IMG/VR virus record: IMGVR_UViG_3300010371_000097
Span: 1 to 27,639 of that record
Origin: a virus
Direction: 5' to 3' (one strand)
Length of the DNA: 27,639 nucleotides
The notes below the pieces were generated by a model. That model searched no databases. It was not told where the DNA came from and was given only the letters and a program-made list of their open reading frames with translations. A program made the translations under genes and the position numbers. Of the stretch, positions 5,378-18,767 are shown in pieces. The first letter of the stretch is position 1, and each line of letters opens with the position of its first letter.

Positions 5378-6829
5378 ATGTATACGCTTGATTACTTCAT
5401 TGATAACGGTTATTTTGAACCGAAGCCTGCCGAAGAAGTAGAATTCGAAATGCAAGGCGGGCACAACATTGCTGAGCTTCTTTCTCCGAAGCTGCGCAAA
5501 CGTCTCTCTACGGTAGGCGGCTCTGATTATAACGGAGACTTCTCCAGACAAGACTCCGCAATTATTACTGCTATACTAGCTGCCGGCTATACTCCTGCGG
5601 ATGCCTATATGACGTTCATGGCTTCATTGCGGGGGAAAGACTGCATCGAACGCAAAGCTGGACACGTAGAAGACTACGTAGAACGCACCATTCGAAAAGC
5701 CATTTCTTTCCTCAAGACAGAAGACAAGTCCACTGCTCCTGATCGAGTAAAGATAGATTTCAGCGGAGGGGAGACCACAGAGAGCGCTGAGGGGAAAGAA
5801 GATGGCATTGTCTCTGTTAAAGCGAGTGATGTAGTTGTCGAGAAGACTCATTGGCTTTGGAAGCCCTATATACCACAAGGGAAGATTACTGTACTTGCTG
5901 GTGATCCCGGAATGGGTAAGTCAACGATTGTGAATGATCTTATCTCTCGGATTACTCGCGGGACTTACATGCCGTTTGGCTTACGCACTGTATCGGGTGT
6001 TTGTGCGATTGCTTCAGCTGAGGATGCTGCGAATGATACCATCACTCCGCGTCTTATAGCGGCTGAAGCGAAGCTTGAGAAAGTCCATATCATTCGCAAA
6101 GTCATCATTGCCGAGGAAGAACATTTCCTGACTCTACCCCGAGATGTCAATCGGCTACAGGATTTTGTAACTCACTATGGAGCGCGTCTGCTGATCATTG
6201 ACCCGTTGAGCGCATTCTTAGAACGTGGCACAGACAGTCACAAGGACCAAGACATTCGCTCAGTACTTGCTCCTCTCGAAGCAATGGCTGAGAAGACAAA
6301 GGTAGCTGTGCTGATTGTTGCTCACTTCAATAAGAGGGAAGATGCTTCAATGCTATATCGAGTTGGGGCGTCTATCGGGCTTGTAGGGGCTGCTCGCTCG
6401 GTCCTGGGCGTCGCCAAGACACCGAAAGACGGTACAAGTGTGCTCTTTCATGCAAAATCAAATCTGGACCGAATGGGCAAAGCGATCTCATACGAGACTC
6501 GCAGCAAGAGAGTCACAAAACAAGAGACAAAGCGGGAGTGGAAAGGTGAGGACGTAGTTGAAAGCAGTACGATTCGATGGAGAGCTGAGGTAGACTTCGA
6601 TCCTAACCAACAAACTTTCATGACCGAGAGTCAGGCAGAAAATGAAGCCGAAGGATTCTTACGACAACTTCTGGTTGATGGAGAACTTCCCGCCGATGAG
6701 ATATTCGCTGAAGCCAGAAAAGCGGGAATCCCGAAGGGACAGCTTACGCGGGTGAAGAGTGAGATTGGAGTGGTGCTGAGAAGAAAAGGGCAGAAGTGGT
6801 TTTGGAAGTTACCTTCTGCATCCGACTAG
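5378..6829 (+). CDS. RecA-fold replicative helicase (RepA/AAA_25-like)
   Basis: Counted from a possible TTG start at 5366 the protein has 487 residues; from ATG 5378 it has 483. Regions in order: a short segment continuing the primase fold (YTLDYFIDNGYF), a PriCT-like helical region (60-115), Walker A GDPGMGKST at 179-187, Walker B LLIIDP at 275-280, a conserved His near 320, and a C-terminal winged helix (about 432-484). This fits hexameric RepA-type helicases that unwind DNA at the fork. ATG 5378 lies one base after the primase stop, so reinitiation is likely. The 3' end overlaps a convergent gene. Confidence 0.88.
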   Translation: MYTLDYFIDNGYFEPKPAEEVEFEMQGGHNIAELLSPKLRKRLSTVGGSDYNGDFSRQDSAIITAILAAGYTPADAYMTFMASLRGKDCIERKAGHVEDYVERTIRKAISFLKTEDKSTAPDRVKIDFSGGETTESAEGKEDGIVSVKASDVVVEKTHWLWKPYIPQGKITVLAGDPGMGKSTIVNDLISRITRGTYMPFGLRTVSGVCAIASAEDAANDTITPRLIAAEAKLEKVHIIRKVIIAEEEHFLTLPRDVNRLQDFVTHYGARLLIIDPLSAFLERGTDSHKDQDIRSVLAPLEAMAEKTKVAVLIVAHFNKREDASMLYRVGASIGLVGAARSVLGVAKTPKDGTSVLFHAKSNLDRMGKAISYETRSKRVTKQETKREWKGEDVVESSTIRWRAEVDFDPNQQTFMTESQAENEAEGFLRQLLVDGELPADEIFAEARKAGIPKGQLTRVKSEIGVVLRRKGQKWFWKLPSASD

Positions 6830-9142: not shown

Positions 9143-9232
9143 CTATCGTACTCGAATAACAATCCAGATAGCACTCAGTAGAATCGCGGTGAAGCTTACG
9201 ATGTTAATGCCGATGCGTATTCTGGTTATCAT
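9143..9232 (-). CDS. 29-residue single-pass membrane micropeptide
   Basis: A short frame starts at ATG 9232, preceded by AAAGGAG at ideal spacing, and ends at TAG (9145-9143). It encodes basic residues followed by a continuous hydrophobic stretch (IGINIVSFTAILLSAIWIVI) and a short basic tail, a clear transmembrane helix. It lies directly after a twister-like element (9248-9309), as the other genes with that leader do. Function unknown; small phage membrane peptides include lysis, superinfection and membrane-targeting factors. Confidence 0.6.
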   Translation of the reverse strand: MITRIRIGINIVSFTAILLSAIWIVIRVR

Positions 9233-9247
9233 GTATTCTCCTTTCTT

Positions 9248-9309
9248 GCACGGGTTGGGACGTGTCTTACCCGCATTAGCGGCGCATCAAACTAGCGCCG
9301 CCCCTCTGC
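9248..9309 (-). ncRNA. Twister-like element E (candidate ribozyme)
   Basis: Read on the minus strand: GCAGAGGG (9309-9302), stem P1 GCGGCGC/GCGCCGC with a 9-nt loop (9301-9279), UAAUGC (9278-9273), a linker, and stem P4 CACG/CGUG around loop UCCCAACC (9264-9249). The AAAGGAG of the 29-residue gene follows. GGG of the first block can pair with CCC in the loop. If it is a twister, cleavage would fall between 9278 (U) and 9277 (A). The upstream gene's stop lies just before it. Confidence 0.65.
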
Positions 9310-9310
9310 G

Positions 9311-9718
9311 TTAAATTACAGGGATTTCCTCAACCGCGTCTGGCACATCTGGCGCAGTAGTGTCAGGTTGGGGCTTGGGAGTCTTCTTCGCTTTCGCTTT
9401 CTTTTCCTTTGCCGGTTTTGGATTTTCTGTTGACGGTGGGGCGCCTTTGGCTTTCTTCGCTTTCTTCGGCGGAAGCTTTGCTTTCTCGCGTCCGCGTTCG
9501 TGTTCATCTTTGTATTTTGCAATGATTTCGGGCAAAGTCTTTTTTAGGAATGGGTCATCTTTCTCCCACTCATAACGAGTGTGCTTGTCATGCCCGAGTC
9601 TCCCCGAGCCCCTGAGAATCTGACGAAGATACTTAGGATCGAGATTGAACATCGCGGCGACCTCTTTGCTTCCAAGAGTCGCTGGCTTCTTTACTTCATC
9701 AGCTTTCTTTGTTGGCAT
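9311..9718 (-). CDS. DNA-binding-like protein with basic Lys/Ala/Pro tail
   Basis: The 135-residue protein has two parts. Residues about 14-60 (LGSKEVAAMFNLDPKYLRQI ... YEWEKDDPFLKK) look like a MerR/excisionase-type helix-turn-helix with a following strand. Residues about 75-125 are a low-complexity Lys/Ala/Pro tail resembling histone H1-like or nucleoid-protein tails. Start ATG 9718 has AAGGGAG upstream. It probably binds DNA through both parts. A structured RNA (9744-9982) lies directly upstream and a twister-like element directly downstream. Confidence 0.7.
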   Translation of the reverse strand: MPTKKADEVKKPATLGSKEVAAMFNLDPKYLRQILRGSGRLGHDKHTRYEWEKDDPFLKKTLPEIIAKYKDEHERGREKAKLPPKKAKKAKGAPPSTENPKPAKEKKAKAKKTPKPQPDTTAPDVPDAVEEIPVI

Positions 9719-9743
9719 TCTACGGCTCTCCCTTGTGAAGTGG

Positions 9744-9982
9744 TTGTACTTCCGTGTCCGTTATCCGTTGACCATGTCTCACTGCCCGATTCGCCACATG
9801 CCTGTGACGCCCCTAGTTGCGTTGAACATCGTTCATGACCGATGCAACGTTCCCTATACGTCAAGATGTCTTCAACTCCGAGAAGTTAAAGATCAGAGCC
9901 GACATTCGGTATTCAGGTACTGTTTTCGTGTCATATCAGCCTCGGGCCTAGCGGGCTTTGAATAACGGACGCGGAAGCACAA
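9744..9982 (-). ncRNA. Candidate large structured RNA, about 240 nt
   Basis: A 23-nt stem joins 9960-9982 with 9744-9766 (21 Watson-Crick or G-U pairs with one internal C-A mismatch, plus the terminal pair). Between these arms lie a 9-bp hairpin UCUUUAACU/AGUUGAAGA (9892-9869), a CAUCG/CGAUG hairpin extended by GUUG/CAAC (9848-9821), GUCACA/UGUGGC with a GGCA tetraloop (9808-9793) and short CCGA/UCGG and GCC/GGC hairpins. Several wobble pairs work only on the minus strand, which fixes the orientation. No open frame is convincing here. I do not recognise the class. Confidence 0.5.
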
Positions 9983-9995
9983 GGCTACCGGAGAC

Positions 9996-10226
9996 TCACA
10001 TGGGCTGGCAATCTACTTCTACCAGCGCTGAGTCATCGTGAAAGTCTGCGATCTCATGGGCTTCTTCCGCTGAGATCGCTCTACGAGTAGGATTCACACT
10101 GCCATAAGTGACATACAGCTGATGACAGTATGAGCATTGTTCAATGGGATTTCCCATAATACTCCAGGCAATCACATTGAGGTGAGGGCCACAGCCGAAT
10201 ACAGCATGAAGAATCTTTGTGATCAT
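9996..10226 (-). CDS. Small hypothetical protein with CxxC
   Basis: The ATG at 10226 follows GGAG at a spacing of five, so it is preferred over GTG 10232, which overlaps the upstream stop. The 76-residue protein has a hydrophobic N-terminal part and CSYCHQLY, a single CxxC that could be half of a zinc site. The C-terminus is acidic. Located between the 357-residue conserved protein and the structured RNA. No family recognised. Confidence 0.55.
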   Translation of the reverse strand: MITKILHAVFGCGPHLNVIAWSIMGNPIEQCSYCHQLYVTYGSVNPTRRAISAEEAHEIADFHDDSALVEVDCQPM

Positions 10227-10228
10227 GT

Positions 10229-11302
10229 TCACTCCAGAATGTAATCAGCATCGAGCGTGATTTCCTCATTGCCATTTGAAAGACTCAAACGGCCTTGATG
10301 ATAATCCAGCTCTTCCCATCTCCCGAAACAGATTCGGCTATGGTTATTATTGTCGATTTTCAGATAGCCTTTAGCATACCAGTACGGTCGATTATTACTC
10401 GACTGGTTTGCTGGCACTGAACGATAGAAGACTCTCGTACTAATTGCCGGAGCGTTTGGAGGCGGCTCATTGAAGCCAATCTCAAGACGTCCTTGAAAGC
10501 TCTTGTCATTCCCAATCACTCCGAGCTTATGACGAGCGAGAATCGTTCCGAAATAATCAGCCATCATTCTCAAGTGGTCACTGTGATCTCGGTCGGGATA
10601 TAGGGCTGAGTAACGACTACAGTAGTACTCCCGAACATGCTTGGGAATTCCCCCTTCCCAACCGATATTCAAAGCGACATTTTTCCCGTCATCGTTTACG
10701 GCATCGGCAATCACCAGATCATTGAAGAATTGCCGGGCGTAAACTCTTGCTACATCGAGAAGTTGAGCTTCTTCGACCATCGAAGACTCAGGTACAGGAA
10801 CAATAAAATCGTACCCCAGTACTCGAATAAGTCTCATGAAGTTTTCCCGATAGGAGGAGATCGATTGCCTGACATCATCTGCTGTACCGCTCAGCATCAG
10901 CTCCGTCAAATCTTCAATACGAAGACGAAACTGAAATCCAGGCGAATAGTACTGCTGAGCGCAAAACTGTAAGCGACTGAGTACTCTCATTGCCGACAGT
11001 TCTGCGAGATCGATGCCATGACCGAATGGGACTTTCACTGAAGCTACTGCAATAAGCACTGGGATAGGTCGTTGTTCATGCACAGCACGCCGTACGACAT
11101 CGCGCATCTTCACAACAGACTCAGGGTTGGGTTTAGGGCCGATTCGCGTCTGCTTCGTACCCAAGAAGAGTTCAACGAGAGCTTCCATTACGGTCTCGCA
11201 ATTTCCTGTTCTCAGTCCCGGAAACTCTCGACCAATGAAAGACTCTATCAAGCTGGCATACGGGTCGTTAGACTCGCCAGTCCATCGAACTACTGTATTC
11301 AT
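10229..11302 (-). CDS. Conserved phage protein, possibly PvcA/Dit1-like
   Basis: The 357-residue protein contains a segment (about 78-180) with the order VLIAVASVKVPFGHGIDLAE, then LSAMRVLSRLQ, then YYSPGFQFRLRIEDLTE. This resembles the arrangement in the DIT1/PvcA isocyanide-synthase fold (a Lys, then D-x-x-E, then YxPG and an acidic strand). The match is from memory and weak, so function is unknown. The C-terminal third is strand-rich with Trp and Tyr. It starts at ATG 11302 in an ATGA overlap and is coupled on both sides, so gene reality is firm. Confidence 0.75.
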   Translation of the reverse strand: MNTVVRWTGESNDPYASLIESFIGREFPGLRTGNCETVMEALVELFLGTKQTRIGPKPNPESVVKMRDVVRRAVHEQRPIPVLIAVASVKVPFGHGIDLAELSAMRVLSRLQFCAQQYYSPGFQFRLRIEDLTELMLSGTADDVRQSISSYRENFMRLIRVLGYDFIVPVPESSMVEEAQLLDVARVYARQFFNDLVIADAVNDDGKNVALNIGWEGGIPKHVREYYCSRYSALYPDRDHSDHLRMMADYFGTILARHKLGVIGNDKSFQGRLEIGFNEPPPNAPAISTRVFYRSVPANQSSNNRPYWYAKGYLKIDNNNHSRICFGRWEELDYHQGRLSLSNGNEEITLDADYILE

Positions 11303-12087
11303 ACTTCCTCCACCGCACCGTGTGCGATCAGTTCTTTCAGAAATCGAGCAATGATCGTCTCGAAGTCCTGTTTCGTTTGTACTTTGCCCTGAGCAGCCTC
11401 CACAATCTGACTGAAGCTCGCAGTCTTCAGAGTCTTGAGGACGCCCAGAAGCGCTTCCTCGCGTCCGCTTGCTACGCTATCATGCTTGCCCGGCTTGACT
11501 CTATAGCTCTTATTGAGCATTGAAGTCTTGCCGGCTGTAGAGCGTACATGATTACGTCCTTTAGGCGGGAAAGTAGCAGCAAGCTCTTTACCGCTCATGG
11601 GTCGGGTTCGTTCTGGGGGATTCTCGTAGTCTCTAAGTTTCTGGTGATAGAGCACCACTCTGCGGGATTGATTGGTGCGCAGATGATCACTGTCATGATT
11701 CTGCAAGTCACGATACCAAACCATCTGTACAAGACCCGTAAGTACGGGACGTAAAAGCTCGCGCACATACGGATCATGCGGTAGGGCGTTCGCACCTGCC
11801 AGAGCAACAATCTGCGAATCCATAAGCTTGTCAATCACGTTATCGCCGCCGTTAGCGCCGACTACATTGTTCAAGTCTTTTGCATCCACAGAGAATCTGA
11901 GATCACCCTGACGAAAGAATGCTCCTGTGCGGGTACGAATGATGTGAGCATCTTCAGCTGACTTATTTGCCATCTGTGCTTGCTCAAAACAGTCATCCGA
12001 GCAGAAACCTGTTCCGAGCAATGAAGACAGAAATTTCACGGGCTTACCGCACCCGCAGGTAGGTGCTTTCGCAGTTGTTGGAGTCAT
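11299..12087 (-). CDS. Zinc-ribbon protein with winged-helix-like C-terminus
   Basis: From the coupled ATG 12087 (ATGA overlap) the protein has 262 residues. The N-terminus has CGCGKPV and GTGFCSDDC, a four-cysteine zinc ribbon. The centre is helical (RELLRPVLTGLVQMVWYRDL). The C-terminus (about 205-262: LLGVLKTLKTASFSQIVEAA ... HGAVEEV) looks like a winged helix. It is probably nucleic-acid binding; role unknown. A longer start at 12156 exists but would overlap the upstream gene heavily. Confidence 0.7.
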   Translation of the reverse strand: MTPTTAKAPTCGCGKPVKFLSSLLGTGFCSDDCFEQAQMANKSAEDAHIIRTRTGAFFRQGDLRFSVDAKDLNNVVGANGGDNVIDKLMDSQIVALAGANALPHDPYVRELLRPVLTGLVQMVWYRDLQNHDSDHLRTNQSRRVVLYHQKLRDYENPPERTRPMSGKELAATFPPKGRNHVRSTAGKTSMLNKSYRVKPGKHDSVASGREEALLGVLKTLKTASFSQIVEAAQGKVQTKQDFETIIARFLKELIAHGAVEEV

Positions 12088-12308
12088 GAGCGTACCCATC
12101 CCTTCACTCTTGACCAGACTCGACTTGGGCGAAACATCCCAGTCGTAAATTTGCAATCTGCCCAGATTACTTGACGACTGCGCCGATTCTTGCGGTATTC
12201 AGCATAGATCATCACGAGAGGAAGCTGATCACCCTTGAATCCCAGCATCAGGCGTTCCCATTCGCCGTTCGGTAGCTGTCGTTCTTGCAGTTCAATATCG
12301 TGTGCCAT
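12084..12308 (-). CDS. Small hypothetical protein, 74 aa
   Basis: The protein starts MAHDIELQERQLPNGEWERL at ATG 12308 after AGAAGGG, immediately downstream of twister-like element C. It looks like a small beta-rich domain (VMIYAEYRKNRRSRQVIWAD) with a basic C-terminus. No family recognised. Its stop overlaps the next ATG, so it is coupled to the zinc-ribbon gene. Confidence 0.6.
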   Translation of the reverse strand: MAHDIELQERQLPNGEWERLMLGFKGDQLPLVMIYAEYRKNRRSRQVIWADCKFTTGMFRPSRVWSRVKGWVRS

Positions 12309-12321
12309 TTTTTTCCCTTCT

Positions 12322-12379
12322 GCTCAGACTTGGGACTGAGCGTGTGCATTACACGGCGATGCTCTGCCGTGCCCTCTGC
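12322..12379 (-). ncRNA. Twister-like element C (candidate ribozyme)
   Basis: Minus strand order: GCAGAGGG (12379-12372), P1 CACGGC/GCCGUG with an 8-nt loop (12371-12352), UAAUGC (12351-12346), linker, P4 GCUCA/UGAGC closing loop GUCCCAAGUC (12341-12322). The ribosome site of the next gene follows within a few bases. Predicted twister cleavage is between 12351 and 12350. The first base touches the TAG of the upstream DUF6011-like gene. Confidence 0.7.
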
Positions 12380-12900
12380 TACGCTGCTTTCTCCATTCTC
12401 CCGGCACACTCAGGACCGATACCGCGCTCAACTGATGACGGTACTGTGAGCTTACGCCCGCAGCGCCCGCATCTGCCCTCATGCCAAATTTCAAGTGTAG
12501 TTGGTAGATGTTTACGCCCGAGCGCCATCATCGTAAACTCGAATGCTTTGTAGCTCGGAGCATCTACTGTGATGAGTGACTTTTTGGCTAATGAGAATCG
12601 ACCATCTCGAATCAATCCCATATAGCTGTAATTATGTTCATTGTCTGGGCCGCTGAGAAGACTGACGTAGAATACATCCTTATCTTCTTTTCGGGCCCAC
12701 TTGGGAATTGCCACCCGAAACGTGAAACGAGTCCCCGTCTTCTTCGATCTCACAGTGAAATAAGCATTGCCTGCAAGAATGTAAGCGAGAGCCGCTTCTG
12801 CCGTTGTAAGCTGCCCGCGCATCATCTCTTCTGCATACTCAGGACGATGCTGGTCAAGTTCTTTCGCATCTAGCTCTTTTGCCATATCGAAGAGTGTCAT
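12379..12900 (-). CDS. DUF6011-like zinc-knuckle phage protein
   Basis: The 173-residue protein ends with CGRCGRKLTVPSSVERGIGP followed by EC, the signature of DUF6011-type zinc knuckles (CxxCxrxL ... GiGPxC), common in phages and actinobacterial proteins. The preceding region (about 50-125) is strand-rich with FTFRVAIPKWARK and YSYMGLI. It probably binds nucleic acid; activity unknown. ATGA overlap with the gene to the right; its TAG abuts element C. Confidence 0.75.
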   Translation of the reverse strand: MTLFDMAKELDAKELDQHRPEYAEEMMRGQLTTAEAALAYILAGNAYFTVRSKKTGTRFTFRVAIPKWARKEDKDVFYVSLLSGPDNEHNYSYMGLIRDGRFSLAKKSLITVDAPSYKAFEFTMMALGRKHLPTTLEIWHEGRCGRCGRKLTVPSSVERGIGPECAGRMEKAA

Positions 12901-13232
12901 GATTTTTTGTTCTCCTGTTTGTAGTACTCATCCAGAGTTCGTGCAGCATCTTCCCAATAAGTACCACGAGCCTGAGCTTTGTTTACAATGAAATCCACTG
13001 TGGATGTGCCAAACTCGGCATTGAGAATAATGCGAAGACACTCAGCCAGCAGAGGCTCGAAATTGGTTCTGTCACGATTGATACGGCTAAACCAGTTTTG
13101 CCATTCAGGCGTAAGTTGTGATCCGCATGGTTTAATGTTGGGGTCGCCCTTGAACTGCTGGCATTCTGTGCAGCGCTTAATCTCATGTCCAGTAGCTTTG
13201 TTGTAATGGATGGTCACGAACTTGTGTTCCAT
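12897..13232 (-). CDS. Hypothetical protein with CxxC, 111 aa
   Basis: It starts at ATG 13232 after GGAGGAG and begins MEHKFVTIHYNKATGHEIKR, followed by CTECQQFKGD, one CxxC, and another Cys nine residues on. The remainder is helical (ECLRIILNAEFGTSTVDFI). No domain recognised. Its 260-odd-base upstream region contains the variant element F with a terminator-like hairpin, so expression may be attenuated. It is coupled by ATGA to the DUF6011-like gene. Confidence 0.6.
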   Translation of the reverse strand: MEHKFVTIHYNKATGHEIKRCTECQQFKGDPNIKPCGSQLTPEWQNWFSRINRDRTNFEPLLAECLRIILNAEFGTSTVDFIVNKAQARGTYWEDAARTLDEYYKQENKKS

Positions 13233-13248
13233 AATCTCCTCCAGTGAA

Positions 13249-13357
13249 CCGCTCAGAAATGCGCCCAGCTAGTAGGCGCATGACTCAGGGGTTACATCAA
13301 GCCTGTCTCTTGTGCATTAAAAAAGCCGCCCATTTCTGAGCGGCTGATTCCCTCTGC
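13249..13357 (-). promoter_or_regulatory. Variant element F: twister-like half plus terminator/antiterminator
   Basis: Minus strand: GCAGAGGG (13357-13350), hairpin AGCCGC/GCGGCU (13345-13324) followed by a run of U (13324-13319) and AAUGCACAAG, copying the first half of the other elements while looking like an intrinsic terminator. A 13-bp perfect repeat (13331-13343 with 13249-13261) pairs the hairpin's 5' strand and loop with a segment just before the ribosome site, so it competes with the terminator. A third hairpin AUGCGCC/GGCGCAU lies between. No UCCCAA loop is present. Confidence 0.55.
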
Positions 13358-13368
13358 AAACTGACTGC

Positions 13369-13605
13369 TTAAGCAGCTTTTTCGGTTGCGACTTTCTTCA
13401 CCGTGAGAACCTTGTCTTCCTTCAGGTCACGGATGTGCTGGCGAAGCACTTTCGCATCGAGGCTCTTGCAAGCCTTCTTAACATCGCCCAGCTCGACTTC
13501 TTTCTTGTTCGCTCCGAGCTTCGTGAGAGCGGTGACAATCTTCGACTTCGTTCCACCCAGCTCTTCCACGTTCACTTTGCCATTCAGCTTGATCATTTGC
13601 GTCAT
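13369..13605 (-). CDS. Small winged-helix-like protein, 78 aa
   Basis: The ATG at 13605 has GAGGAG at a spacing of seven; an ATG two codons upstream is too close to it. The protein starts MTQMIKLNGKVNVEELGGTK and has KIVTALTKLGANKKEVELGD, then LRQHIRDLKEDKVLTVKK, which reads as helix-helix-wing of a small winged helix. Basic overall, with an alanine-rich end. It probably binds nucleic acid. Its leader (13606-13799) holds an inverted repeat. Confidence 0.65.
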   Translation of the reverse strand: MTQMIKLNGKVNVEELGGTKSKIVTALTKLGANKKEVELGDVKKACKSLDAKVLRQHIRDLKEDKVLTVKKVATEKAA

Positions 13606-13680
13606 TTTCATTCTCCTCAAATTTTTTAGTTTGGCGGACATTGAAACTGTACTACGAACCTCTTCGAACAGGCAAGGGCT

Positions 13681-13716
13681 ACAGTGTTCTATTTTCCAGC
13701 TTACAAGAAACACTGT
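13681..13716. repeat. Inverted repeat in leader of 13369-13605 gene
   Basis: ACAGTGTT (13681-13688) and AACACTGT (13709-13716) form perfect 8-bp arms separated by 20 bases. It lies about 75 bases upstream of the start codon in the 194-base gap. It could be an operator or an RNA hairpin; no confident promoter was found beside it. Confidence 0.35.
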
Positions 13717-13799
13717 ATTCTCAAGCGCTAAGCGTGCCGCTTGCTGTTAACAGGGCTGGTAAACTCCCGAATGCGGTCTTGGAAGGGGCGGCGCGGGGC

Positions 13800-14009
13800 T
13801 TATGGCTGCCCCTCGCCCGCCGCCCGCATCTTGGAATCTAGTTCAGCGGGGTCTGCCTGAACGCGGGCCAGCATTTCATTGATGGCCTTGGTGCTGGCCT
13901 CTTTCGAGTCATAGCCCCAGCCCACATGCGTCCAGCCATCATTGCACTTTATCGTGCATTCTTTCCCTATGCCCTTGGTGCTCCATTCGATGCTGGTAAT
14001 TCTCGTCAC
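13800..14009 (-). CDS. Small hypothetical protein, 69 aa
   Basis: GTG start at 14009 with AAGGGGG about seven bases upstream. The protein (MTRITSIEWSTKGIGKECTI ...) looks like a small strand-strand-helix domain: two short strands, GWTHVGWGYDSKEAST and an amphipathic helix INEMLARVQ. The gene is visibly more GC-rich than its neighbours, suggesting separate acquisition. No family recognised. Confidence 0.55.
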   Translation of the reverse strand: MTRITSIEWSTKGIGKECTIKCNDGWTHVGWGYDSKEASTKAINEMLARVQADPAELDSKMRAAGEGQP

Positions 14010-14024
14010 TGATTGCCCCCTTTT

Positions 14025-14288
14025 CTATGTCCCGAAACTAACGTTTGCTGGTGCAGTGGGTGTAGTGCGGGCAACTCTGCCTTGTGCGCCGACACTGCAA
14101 ACGGAAATCAGCTGGGGCTGAGTGAAAAGCCCAGTCGGCTTGGTCATGAAGTACAAAGAGCCACAGTCAGGACACTGAACGAGTAGTTTGTGATTGACGG
14201 GGACTCCCACTTCACCGATGTAGTGACAGTGGCAGTCGAGCTTAAACAGATGATGCTTGGCTGTCGAGCGAATGAATTCGGTTGACAT
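14025..14288 (-). CDS. Zinc-ribbon-like protein, 87 aa
   Basis: From ATG 14288 (AAAGGAG upstream, directly after twister-like element B) the protein has LDCHCHYIGEVGVPVNHKLL followed by QCPDCG, giving a C-x-C ... C-x2-C arrangement typical of a zinc ribbon. The C-terminal half is Pro/Thr/Ala-rich and probably disordered. A longer in-frame extension runs through the element and is unlikely to be translated. Function unknown. Confidence 0.6.
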   Translation of the reverse strand: MSTEFIRSTAKHHLFKLDCHCHYIGEVGVPVNHKLLVQCPDCGSLYFMTKPTGLFTQPQLISVCSVGAQGRVARTTPTAPANVSFGT

Positions 14289-14304
14289 CACTTTTCTCCT
14301 TTGT

Positions 14305-14358
14305 GCGAAGACTTGGGACTTCGCTTGTGCATTACGGCTCTTACGAGCCGCCCTCTGC
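14305..14358 (-). ncRNA. Twister-like element B (candidate ribozyme)
   Basis: Minus strand order: GCAGAGGG (14358-14351), P1 CGGCUC/GAGCCG with loop GUAA (14350-14335), UAAUGC (14334-14329), ACAA, P4 GCGAA/UUCGC around loop GUCCCAAGUC (14324-14305), then AAAGGAG of the next gene. This is the most compact copy. The stop codon of the upstream gene is the UAA in the P1 loop, so coding and structure overlap. Predicted cleavage lies between 14334 and 14333. Confidence 0.7.
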
Positions 14359-14583
14359 TTTGTTTCGTTCTTTGACAACTTCTCGAAAATTCAAAACCCG
14401 TAAAGACTCATCCAGCATTTCAATGCTATAGTTCCTGTCCCCAGAAAGCTCCCAAGCATCATCCCAAACTTGCTCGGTTTCATCCGGAGTAGCATTCACG
14501 AGTGTCGTTAGCTCTGTAACGGCACTTTCAATTTCCCGTTTCAATTGCTCGATTCGATTGGCTTTTTCTTGCTCGGTTAGCAT
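14341..14583 (-). CDS. Small coiled-coil protein, 80 aa
   Basis: ATG 14583 has GAGGTGAG upstream and overlaps the previous gene's end. The first half (EQEKANRIEQLKREIESAV) is a heptad-like coiled coil; the second is acidic with a short helical end. The last codons, A-E-G-G-S-stop, coincide with the GCAGAGGG block and P1 of element B. No family recognised. Confidence 0.6.
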   Translation of the reverse strand: MLTEQEKANRIEQLKREIESAVTELTTLVNATPDETEQVWDDAWELSGDRNYSIEMLDESLRVLNFREVVKERNKAEGGS

Positions 14584-14744
14584 GATCTCACCTCCATTGC
14601 CTTGCGCATCGCCGATTGCCAGTAGATGTCCCGCTCTTGCTGAGTCATCTCTTGATGCTTGCGCAGTTTCGTTTCGACTTTATCGCCGATCATTTGAAAA
14701 GCCTGACGCTCGATACGAGTTACACGATGTGGATTGTATTGCAT
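14577..14744 (-). CDS. Small hypothetical protein, 55 aa
   Basis: Directly downstream of twister-like element A, ATG 14744 follows TGAGGAG at good spacing. The protein begins MQYNPHRVTRIERQAFQMIG and is basic and helical, with QEMTQQERDIYWQSAMRKAM near the end. It overlaps the start of the next gene by seven bases. No domain recognised. Confidence 0.6.
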   Translation of the reverse strand: MQYNPHRVTRIERQAFQMIGDKVETKLRKHQEMTQQERDIYWQSAMRKAMEVRSC

Positions 14745-14762
14745 GACGTTCTCCTCAATGCT

Positions 14763-14828
14763 GTCCGATTTGGGACGGACTCACGCGATGCGTGAACGCA
14801 TTACGCGGCTTATCGCCGCGCCCTCTGC
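14763..14828 (-). ncRNA. Twister-like element A with an extra hairpin
   Basis: Minus strand order: GCAGAGGG (14828-14821), P1 CGCGGC/GCCGCG with loop GAUAA (14820-14804), UAAUGC (14803-14798), an additional 6-bp hairpin UCACGC/GCGUGA (14795-14781), then P4 GUCC/GGAC closing a loop with UCCCAAAUC (14780-14763). The extra hairpin occupies the place of the optional P3/P5 stems of twisters. Predicted cleavage lies between 14803 and 14802. The 5' half has been tandemly duplicated (14844-14877). Confidence 0.68.
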
Positions 14829-14877
14829 TTGAATACTTTGAACTTATCGCCGCGCCCTCTGCTTGAATACTTTGAAC
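14810..14877. repeat. Perfect 34-bp tandem duplication
   Basis: Bases 14810-14843 and 14844-14877 are identical. On the minus strand each unit holds the last codons of the zinc-ribbon gene (V-F-K-Q-R-A-R-R-stop region) plus the GCAGAGGG block and half of P1 of element A. The second copy of the 5' block lacks a partner P1 strand of its own, so two copies compete for one 3' half. Confidence 0.9.
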
Positions 14878-15041
14878 TTCTCTCCGCCGCAGATGCATTG
14901 TGTTGGGTAATCGTCTTTTGCATGAACTACGCCACACGCTATGCACTGAATCATCTCTCTCACTTGATACCAGCCGTAAAGTTTACGGGGCACAAGCGGC
15001 TTCGGAATGAACTTCTGTTGAATGCTTTCGAGTTGGGTCAT
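14844..15041 (-). CDS. Zinc-ribbon protein, 65 aa
   Basis: ATG 15041 overlaps the stop of the upstream gene. The protein carries CIACGVVHAKDDYPTQCICG, a complete C-x2-C ... C-x2-C zinc ribbon in the middle, followed by a basic tail encoded by the duplicated segment. Its TAA is the last codon in the duplicated unit. It is probably nucleic-acid binding; specific role unknown. Confidence 0.65.
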   Translation of the reverse strand: MTQLESIQQKFIPKPLVPRKLYGWYQVREMIQCIACGVVHAKDDYPTQCICGGEKFKVFKQRARR

Positions 15042-15268
15042 TTTCTCACCTGTAAGATTGAAAGATTCTTCAGCTCTATAGAAGTAACTTCGCCAGCAAA
15101 GTCTTCCTGACTATAAAGAATATTTTCTCGCATTGTGCTGGTATCGAAAAGATCGATGAACGTATCGATCAAATCATCCTGATTGAGCACAGCACCCGGC
15201 TCATGCTCGACCATCACCTCGAAAGTAACTCTGATTTTCTTCTGAATCACTTGCTCTTTTTTTGCCAT
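15038..15268 (-). CDS. Small hypothetical protein, 76 aa
   Basis: ATG 15268 is preceded by AAGGAG and twister-like element D. The protein begins MAKKEQVIQKKIRVTFEVMV, then has an acidic helical segment and ends with a strand (GEVTSIELKNLSILQVRK). It looks like a small alpha/beta domain. It is the first gene after the promoter at 15838-15865, following an unusually long leader. No family recognised. Confidence 0.65.
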   Translation of the reverse strand: MAKKEQVIQKKIRVTFEVMVEHEPGAVLNQDDLIDTFIDLFDTSTMRENILYSQEDFAGEVTSIELKNLSILQVRK

Positions 15269-15284
15269 TGTGTTCTCCTTGTGC

Positions 15285-15344
15285 GCTCAATTTGGGATGA
15301 GCCGCCGATTGATTAGAGAGCGATATTCTGCTCTCCCCTCTCAT
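15285..15344 (-). ncRNA. Twister-like element D with covarying P2
   Basis: Minus strand order: UGAGAGGG (15343-15336), P1 GAGAGC/GCUCUC with an 8-nt loop (15335-15316), UAAUCA (15315-15310), linker, P4 GCUCA/UGAGC around a loop with AUCCCAAAU (15302-15285). In the other copies the short P2 is GCA with UGC; here it is UGA with UCA, a compensatory change that keeps pairing. Predicted cleavage lies between 15315 and 15314. AAGGAG of the next gene follows. Confidence 0.65.
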
Positions 15345-15345
15345 A

Positions 15346-15837
15346 GGTTTATTGTCTCGGTTGTAGCTCTCGTATTGCGCTGGCTTTGCGTATCACGCTG
15401 TCTCTCGTGAATTCGTGCTGCGAAGCGCTTTATCAAGTCACCAAGTTTCGAGATCACCTGTTGATCTCACTCGCTCTGTCTGTTTCTCGCGCTGGAGTTT
15501 CTGTTGAGAGAGAATTCATATTCTTGCGGGCATCGTGTCTGAGATCGTGCGATATCAGCTCAGAGCGGCTGTACAAGCAGGCTCGGTAGGGATCAGTTCA
15601 CACTCAAACTCACTAGCTCGCGGGCGCTTCAGGAGAGTCTCACGTCTCGACTCACAGCGTAGAATCTCTTTCGCTTTGATCTGTCAGCCTCGCTGGGAGT
15701 CTCAAGTGATTGAAGTCTTGCTTTGAAATATTGAGCAACGGGATTCGAGATCGCGGCGGCAGAGAAGCTCTGCTTTTTGCGTCTGAAGCTTAGAAGTGAA
15801 AGAGCTGACTTGCTTGCTCCCGTCTGGAAGCATGTCC
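15346..15837 (-). other. Long leader without a convincing gene
   Basis: Nearly 500 bases lie between the promoter at 15838-15865 and element D. On the minus strand it is purine-rich with many GAGA-like runs. Possible frames (such as one ending at 15629, or a 43-codon frame from ATG 15834) lack ribosome sites and recognisable motifs. It may be a regulatory leader, a small RNA or decayed coding sequence; I see nothing more specific. Confidence 0.4.
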
Positions 15838-18128: not shown

Positions 18129-18295
18129 CGTCCGCCTCCAGTCAGTTTAAGTCTGCGAATTTCTGCTCCGAGTTCAAGGGCGTCGGCTTCAATGGGAGAA
18201 AGCTGTGCAATAGCAACGCCATTCTTTGTGATCGTAAACGTCTTGCCCATCTGCGCCTGTAACAGCACGTCCCCCGGAGCCTTACGGAAGTCCAT
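18125..18295 (-). CDS. Phd/YefM antitoxin-like small protein, possibly frameshifted
   Basis: The 56-residue frame reads MDFRKAPGDVLLQAQMGKTF, then TITKNGVAIAQLSP, closely matching the Phd/YefM N-terminal fold, which binds DNA and neutralises a toxin. No ribosome site precedes ATG 18295. Codons just upstream in the same frame (KETITA) look coding but stop at TAG, whereas a GTG-started frame from 18366 (VSDEPTHFGKFSGF) flows into the region in another frame. A one-base shift near 18320 would join them. No toxin gene is recognised beside it. Confidence 0.45.
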   Translation of the reverse strand: MDFRKAPGDVLLQAQMGKTFTITKNGVAIAQLSPIEADALELGAEIRRLKLTGGGR

Positions 18296-18362
18296 CGCCG
18301 TGATGGTTTCTTTCTGGGCCTGCTAAAACCAGAGAATTTGCCAAAGTGCGTCGGCTCATCGC

Positions 18363-18767
18363 TCACTCCCTTTCCGTTCTCTCTCTGATGCGCAGTAGCC
18401 GGTCGATCTCAGCTGCGATCAGTGCCCCGGCTTTAGTCAGTAAGTCAATACGCTCATCCAGTGAGCAACTGCACGGGTGAGTAGGTCGAAAACTGCGCTT
18501 AACTCTGTTCTCTCCGTACTGCATTCTCTTGTCCCAGCGTGATGACCACGGCCATGGGTCTGAGAACTGAAAACCTTTTGTAAGCTCACTGGCAACGTAG
18601 ATAGGGAGAGGGGAAGCGTAGCATACTGCGGCTTTCGCCAGTTCTCCGTGATCGTGCTCGTCATCGTGCTGAGCCGTGAATTTCTCTTCAAGCACCTGAC
18701 GCATCCGCTCTTTGACAATACGCATGATACCCTGATTAGTCTGCGGAGACAGGACGATCTTATTCAT
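18363..18767 (-). CDS. Conserved phage protein, 134 aa
   Basis: The protein resembles a family common in phage genomes: IVKERMRQVLEEKFTAQHDD near the N-terminus, ELAKAAVCYASP, DPWPWSSRWDKRM, and a C-terminal LLTKAGALIAAEIDRLLR. The conserved E-R-x-R-Q, HDD and DPWPW features are what I recognise; the function is not known to me. ATG 18767 overlaps the upstream stop. Confidence 0.75.
   Translation of the reverse strand: MNKIVLSPQTNQGIMRIVKERMRQVLEEKFTAQHDDEHDHGELAKAAVCYASPLPIYVASELTKGFQFSDPWPWSSRWDKRMQYGENRVKRSFRPTHPCSCSLDERIDLLTKAGALIAAEIDRLLRIRERTERE

Follow-up and report, generated by a model that had tools for sequence, protein, structure and literature searches.

For the twister ribozyme, two pseudoknots and a cleavage site between U and A have been described (PMC6154101), and its circularly permuted form, type P5, is credited to Roth et al. 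2014 in the relevant passages of PMC10085705. The same passages note a concentration of bacterial twisters and hammerheads around Mu-like phage genes and close to other ribozymes, for a reason given there as not known. Clustered hammerheads flanking prophage genes were reported by Perreault et al. 2011 (PMC3088659), in the relevant passages of which such clusters are proposed to segment polycistronic phage mRNA, with cleavage shown both in vitro and in E. coli.

The stretch of DNA analysed here (hereafter, the window) comprises 27,639 nt of the IMG/VR virus record IMGVR_UViG_3300010371_000097, which belongs to a bacterial virus sampled from the environment. A structural descriptor (a 3-bp P2, a GAGG core, a P1 no shorter than 4 bp, UAA, UCCCAA and a P4 no shorter than 3 bp) identifies exactly five elements over the window, all of them on the minus strand and at gene junctions; the rest of the window yields no match, and neither does a Markov resample of loci L001-L123. 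These are the five minus-strand copies of a common layout in intercistronic gaps that a preliminary description of the sequence had proposed, in the same positions, and the Shine-Dalgarno (SD) sequence of the next gene, which it had placed after each copy, is indeed present downstream of all five, followed by a start codon. Its list was nevertheless incomplete, as a decayed sixth copy (F) had been missed. The copies are given below with their neighbouring genes and with their scores under two models, namely the Rfam type-P5 twister model RF02684 (gathering threshold 37.6 bits) and R1, a covariance model made from 73 viral copies with the window sequences left out.

9249-9309, minus strand: twister-P5 copy A; RF02684 52.6 bits, R1 44.2 bits; T2 GG/CC; P2 begins 1 nt past the upstream stop UAA; predicted cleavage between U9278 and A9277, giving a 45-nt 5' leader before the start codon (ATG at 9232) of an ORF for a 29-aa membrane-type peptide.
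12084-12308, minus strand: gene downstream of copy B, 74 aa.
12322-12379, minus strand: twister-P5 copy B; RF02684 48.0 bits, R1 67.3 bits; the G of the upstream stop TAG is the G of P2 GCA; predicted cleavage 12351/12350, ATG at 12308 after 42 nt.
12379-12900, minus strand: gene upstream of copy B, DUF6011, PHROG 20259.
13299-13357, minus strand: decayed copy F; R1 16.2 bits, E 0.005; exact pattern (shuffle expectation 0) and terminator scan.
14025-14288, minus strand: gene downstream of copy C, 87 aa.
14305-14358, minus strand: twister-P5 copy C; RF02684 48.4 bits, R1 60.4 bits; the upstream ORF's stop UAA lies within the P1 loop (stop at +18); predicted cleavage 14334/14333, ATG at 14288 after 45 nt.
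14763-14828, minus strand: probable twister-P5 copy E; RF02684 32.9 bits, E 0.002 (below cut-off), R1 32.5 bits, E 2e-7; additional hairpin-capable, P3-like insert between P2 and P4; predicted cleavage 14803/14802, ATG at 14744 after 58 nt.
14809-14842 and 14843-14876, minus strand: exact tandem duplication of 34 nt from a repeat search, holding GCAGAGGGCGCGGCGATAAG plus upstream sequence.
15038-15268, minus strand: gene downstream of copy D, 76 aa.
15284-15343, minus strand: probable twister-P5 copy D; no RF02684 match, R1 31.6 bits, E 4e-7; compensated P2 (UGA/UCA) and T2 (AU/AU); P2 strand UGA is the in-frame stop of a 38-codon GTG ORF at 15341-15457; predicted cleavage 15315/15314, ATG at 15268 after 46 nt.

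Copies A, C and B exceed the RF02684 threshold and E and D miss it, while R1 recovers all five (31.6-67.3 bits, E 1e-16 to 4e-7) as well as the decayed copy F; since this independent model finds both D and E, we file these two as probable members of type P5. All five copies possess the P1, P2 and P4 stems, the internal-loop letters GAGGG and UAA, and an L4 loop UCCCAA with the T1 pairing GGG:CCC, which is invariant in the window. Their parts follow one order, GCA-GAGGG-P1 hairpin-UAA-UGC-P4 hairpin (with UGA/UCA as P2 in copy D), in which P1 is closed by a loop and the molecule is open between P4 and P2. The preliminary description had suggested a twister in permuted form with P1 closed, an assignment borne out by both models and equivalent to the type-P5 permutation published according to the passages concerned of PMC10085705. 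It had further described P1, P4 and P2 as varying in sequence yet staying paired, as they do (P2 varying only in copy D), and a GGG-CCC pairing that proves to be pseudoknot T1, with compensated swaps in other phages. Its account of the fold did not extend to T2, a pairing that every one of the five copies can form and that takes four different sequences among them (AU/AU, GU/AU, AC/GU, AC/GU, GG/CC). The identification of the window elements as type-P5 twister ribozymes is supported by these features, and self-cleavage is predicted for them. Apart from the twister, neither the window nor 111 kb of array loci contains any Rfam family at the gathering threshold. A further R1 match at 18186-18254(-), of 10.8 bits, was rejected as chance; it falls inside a small antitoxin-like ORF of 74 aa (window 18142-18366, minus strand), which resembles Phd/YefM-type antitoxins by eye (ITKNGVAIAQLSPIEAD) and has no Pfam match.

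Copies B and C are 81% identical across 47 nt of the 3' half and are probably paralogues. In copy E, the 34-nt duplication has doubled the 5' half together with the upstream stop region, such that two alternative 5' halves precede a single 3' half and the upstream gene ends in the first of these; before the duplication, the stop of copy E probably lay in the P1 loop. The switch of P2 to UGA/UCA in copy D may have arisen because UGA serves as a stop, as judged from the 38-codon ORF. Both of these lower-scoring copies, D and E, may be slow at cleavage. The pattern GCAGAGGG..TAATGC occurs five times in the window (copies A, B, C and E and the decayed copy F) and not once in 100 dinucleotide shuffles. 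Copy F retains GCAGAGGG .. TAATGCACAAG, the UCCCAA loop is absent, and a terminator-like hairpin followed by a T-run (13324-13345) stands in place of its P1; possibly a former cut site is now a transcription stop. Akin to copy F are half-ribozymes in three other loci (L045:2953, L065:1018, L075:2186), in which GCAGAGGG-P1-TAATGC is directly followed by AAGGAGG, without P4/L4.

Covariation across viral copies points to selection on the entire fold. In the 73-copy viral alignment, 98.4% of cells are paired and cells with a double change number 342, versus 92 in shuffles. Preselection partly affected P1, P2 and P4 in this alignment, but not T2, which is 95% paired. Furthermore, a scan of the viral contigs that required P1, P2, P4 and T2 and left T1 free yielded 124 distinct elements, and none on resampled DNA. 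Three Watson-Crick T1 pairs are present in 124/124 of these elements, including all 18 with a non-standard T1, which are compensated throughout and display eight alternative sequences (e.g. GAGAG/UCUCAA and GAAGG/UCCUAA; T1 pairs GAG/CUC, AGG/CCU and GCA/UGC). Such complete compensation rules out chance repeats and argues for selection on the full twister fold. Several swapped-T1 twisters lie beside standard copies within one phage; the loci with swapped T1 are L052, L059, L079, L091, L109, L121, L035, L042, L048, L049, L055, L064, L068 and L012.

Arrays of these elements recur among uncultured viruses. Of 101 IMG/VR contigs, picked by a strict pattern and then searched, 88 have at least one match with E no higher than 0.001, and 42 contain two or more (summed by hand), the largest arrays comprising 20 (G113), 15 (G081) and 14 copies (G097). 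In no locus do copies occur on both strands. When genes were called without reference to ribozymes, ten array regions and the window together had 78 junctions whose gap measured 55-130 nt, and 68 of these contained a twister; in G113, 20 of the 22 junctions did. Given that the array contigs were selected by pattern, with a few near-duplicates among them, these figures describe array phages rather than phages at large. That gaps no longer than 40 nt contain no ribozyme is trivial, as none would fit. In the G113 concatenation (L106+L091+L052), the sole twister-sized gap without a twister lies at 6094-6188 and apparently holds two other hairpins.

We found no cultured array phage, queries from array phages returned no near relative among annotated phages, and the window has no DNA match to annotated phages. 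Scanning GTDB genomes with the same pattern gave mostly chance matches, and so revealed no host; among 80 rescored loci, only L280 and L316 exceeded 50 bits, and these are pieces of one contig. At the protein level, the gene upstream of copy B shares 50% identity over 134 aa with a gene situated downstream of a twister in the 15-copy contig G081, and its product has relatives in phages of Caulobacter, Brevundimonas and Rhizobium; twisters are absent from six checked phage records that carry such relatives.

The elements are closely fitted between stop codon and SD. In most of 141 distinct viral copies the upstream stop abuts or overlaps P2 and the SD comes after P4; 122 of the 141 have, just past P4, an SD no shorter than 4 nt together with an ORF, compared with 26-32% of random sites on the same strand and 18% for the antisense strand. 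For 84 of 134 viral copies the upstream stop falls between -7 and +1 relative to the P2 strand; in 31 of these it is a TAG that shares its G with the first ribozyme base (GCA). Internal upstream stops number 10 among the viral copies. In six loci (L008, L027, L041, L072, L109 and L115), upstream ORFs cross P1 and stop at the catalytic UAA, the cleavage site thereby being the stop codon. Promoter-like sites do not exceed their frequency in shuffled sequence.

Given their sequence and position, we think it rather probable that P5 twisters act as cut marks between genes on polycistronic phage mRNA. Once the ribosome leaves the upstream gene, the RNA would fold and cut itself between the U and A of UAA, so that the upstream message would end in an intact P1 hairpin and a U with a 2',3'-cyclic phosphate, and the downstream message would start with a 5'-OH and AAUGC, then the P4 hairpin and the ribosome-binding site. 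The predicted downstream leaders would be uniform, at 42-46 nt (58 nt in copy E). A long transcript would thus become a set of shorter mRNAs with a hairpin on each new end, and these hairpins would probably serve to tune how stable each gene's message is and how well it is translated; what the phage gains from this is the least certain step. On our own reading of the permutations, type P5 would leave one hairpin on each product, and in type P3 the upstream product would carry both. The window copies lie in gene orientation, as in the multi-ribozyme processing of phage mRNA proposed for hammerheads, and in every locus the array lies on one strand only. Cleavage of the window copies, its timing after translation and a gain for the phage are what we infer from these observations.

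Several observations count against segmentation. Twisters occupy only 5 of about 15 junctions in the window, and at several of the others start and stop overlap; most homologues of the gene upstream of copy B lie on twister-free contigs, so the elements are not bound to a particular gene; and in folded predicted 3' products SD accessibility was only marginally above that in shuffled-leader controls, a difference on which we base no claim. A broader claim is that, in a group of uncultured tailed phages, P5 twisters are general separators, fitted from stop to SD at nearly every non-coupled junction of long operons and yielding single-gene mRNAs, such that RNA self-cutting replaces separate promoters, terminators and host RNases. 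We see this claim as evenly poised between being right and being wrong.

A potential alternative is that the twisters are active yet mainly regulatory, with translation of the upstream gene covering the 5' half and cleavage reporting on that translation so as to tune the downstream message. A terminating ribosome covers about 12-15 nt past the stop, and stops that overlap P2 or lie in the P1 loop (in copies B, C and probably D, and in the viral set as 31 TAG overlaps and 10 internal stops) would suit such a role. However, stops just before P2 are about equally common, and genome compactness alone can account for the fit to the stop, for which reasons we consider this explanation unlikely. The elements might also be selfish or hitchhiking, spreading within and between phages, tolerated only in gaps and cleaving incidentally. 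Copies within one locus are more alike than copies elsewhere (6-mer Jaccard 0.086 vs 0.023), B and C are apparent paralogues, copy F has decayed, and we found no orthologous junction pairs shared between array contigs, all of which could reflect such spread. Yet strict gene orientation and exact placement from stop to SD are difficult to reconcile with mere tolerance, compensatory change in P1, P4, T1 and T2 shows that the fold is selected at each place, and no associated mobility gene or flanking repeat is present; a selfish origin of the pattern accordingly appears quite unlikely to us.

The elements might instead be non-catalytic structured leaders, i.e. mRNA-stabilising hairpins or transcription attenuators that have lost cleavage, as the terminator-like hairpin now in place of P1 in copy F and the deviation of D and E from the Rfam consensus may suggest. 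Nonetheless, the active-site letters UAA, GAGGG and UCCCAA and both pseudoknots are retained in all five copies, and T1, which is needed for the active fold and would be superfluous in a plain hairpin, is compensated across phages, making this explanation very improbable.

The ribozyme class is already known, as is the idea of genes flanked by multiple ribozymes, proposed in 2011 for phage hammerheads. With RF02684 the window elements share sequence blocks, stems, both pseudoknots and the open end between P4 and P2, and three copies pass its cut-off; they differ in the P2 of copy D (UGA/UCA, no match), in the insert of copy E and, in other phages, in swaps of T1 with full compensation. Natural twisters with swapped P2, T1 and T2 are material for structure work, and the arrays offer a compact natural design for gene separators. 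For the scale of the arrays and the exact fit from stop to SD we found no description in the open literature, outside which the primary twister papers lie. Phages with 5-20 twisters at consecutive junctions, each fitted to the nucleotide between stop and ribosome-binding site, make the clustering of ribozymes near phage genes accessible to straightforward measurement of mRNA ends and protein levels. Phage association and clustering are shared with the ribozymes of PMC10085705, in the relevant passages of which gap-by-gap arrays are not described. The theta ribozymes of gut phages (PMC10879173) are likewise self-cleaving and have been proposed to process phage transcripts, but have an HDV-like fold and are tied to tRNA genes rather than to gaps in mRNA. 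Closer are the hammerheads of PMC3088659, where, in the passages concerned, several self-cleaving ribozymes likewise lie between phage genes and are proposed to cut the transcript into operon- or gene-length mRNAs; these belong to an unrelated class, form a triple arrangement and flank genes or short blocks rather than filling nearly every gap, and a fit from stop to SD is not described in those passages. The P5 arrays fit the segmentation idea put forward for hammerheads, with another ribozyme and on a larger scale.
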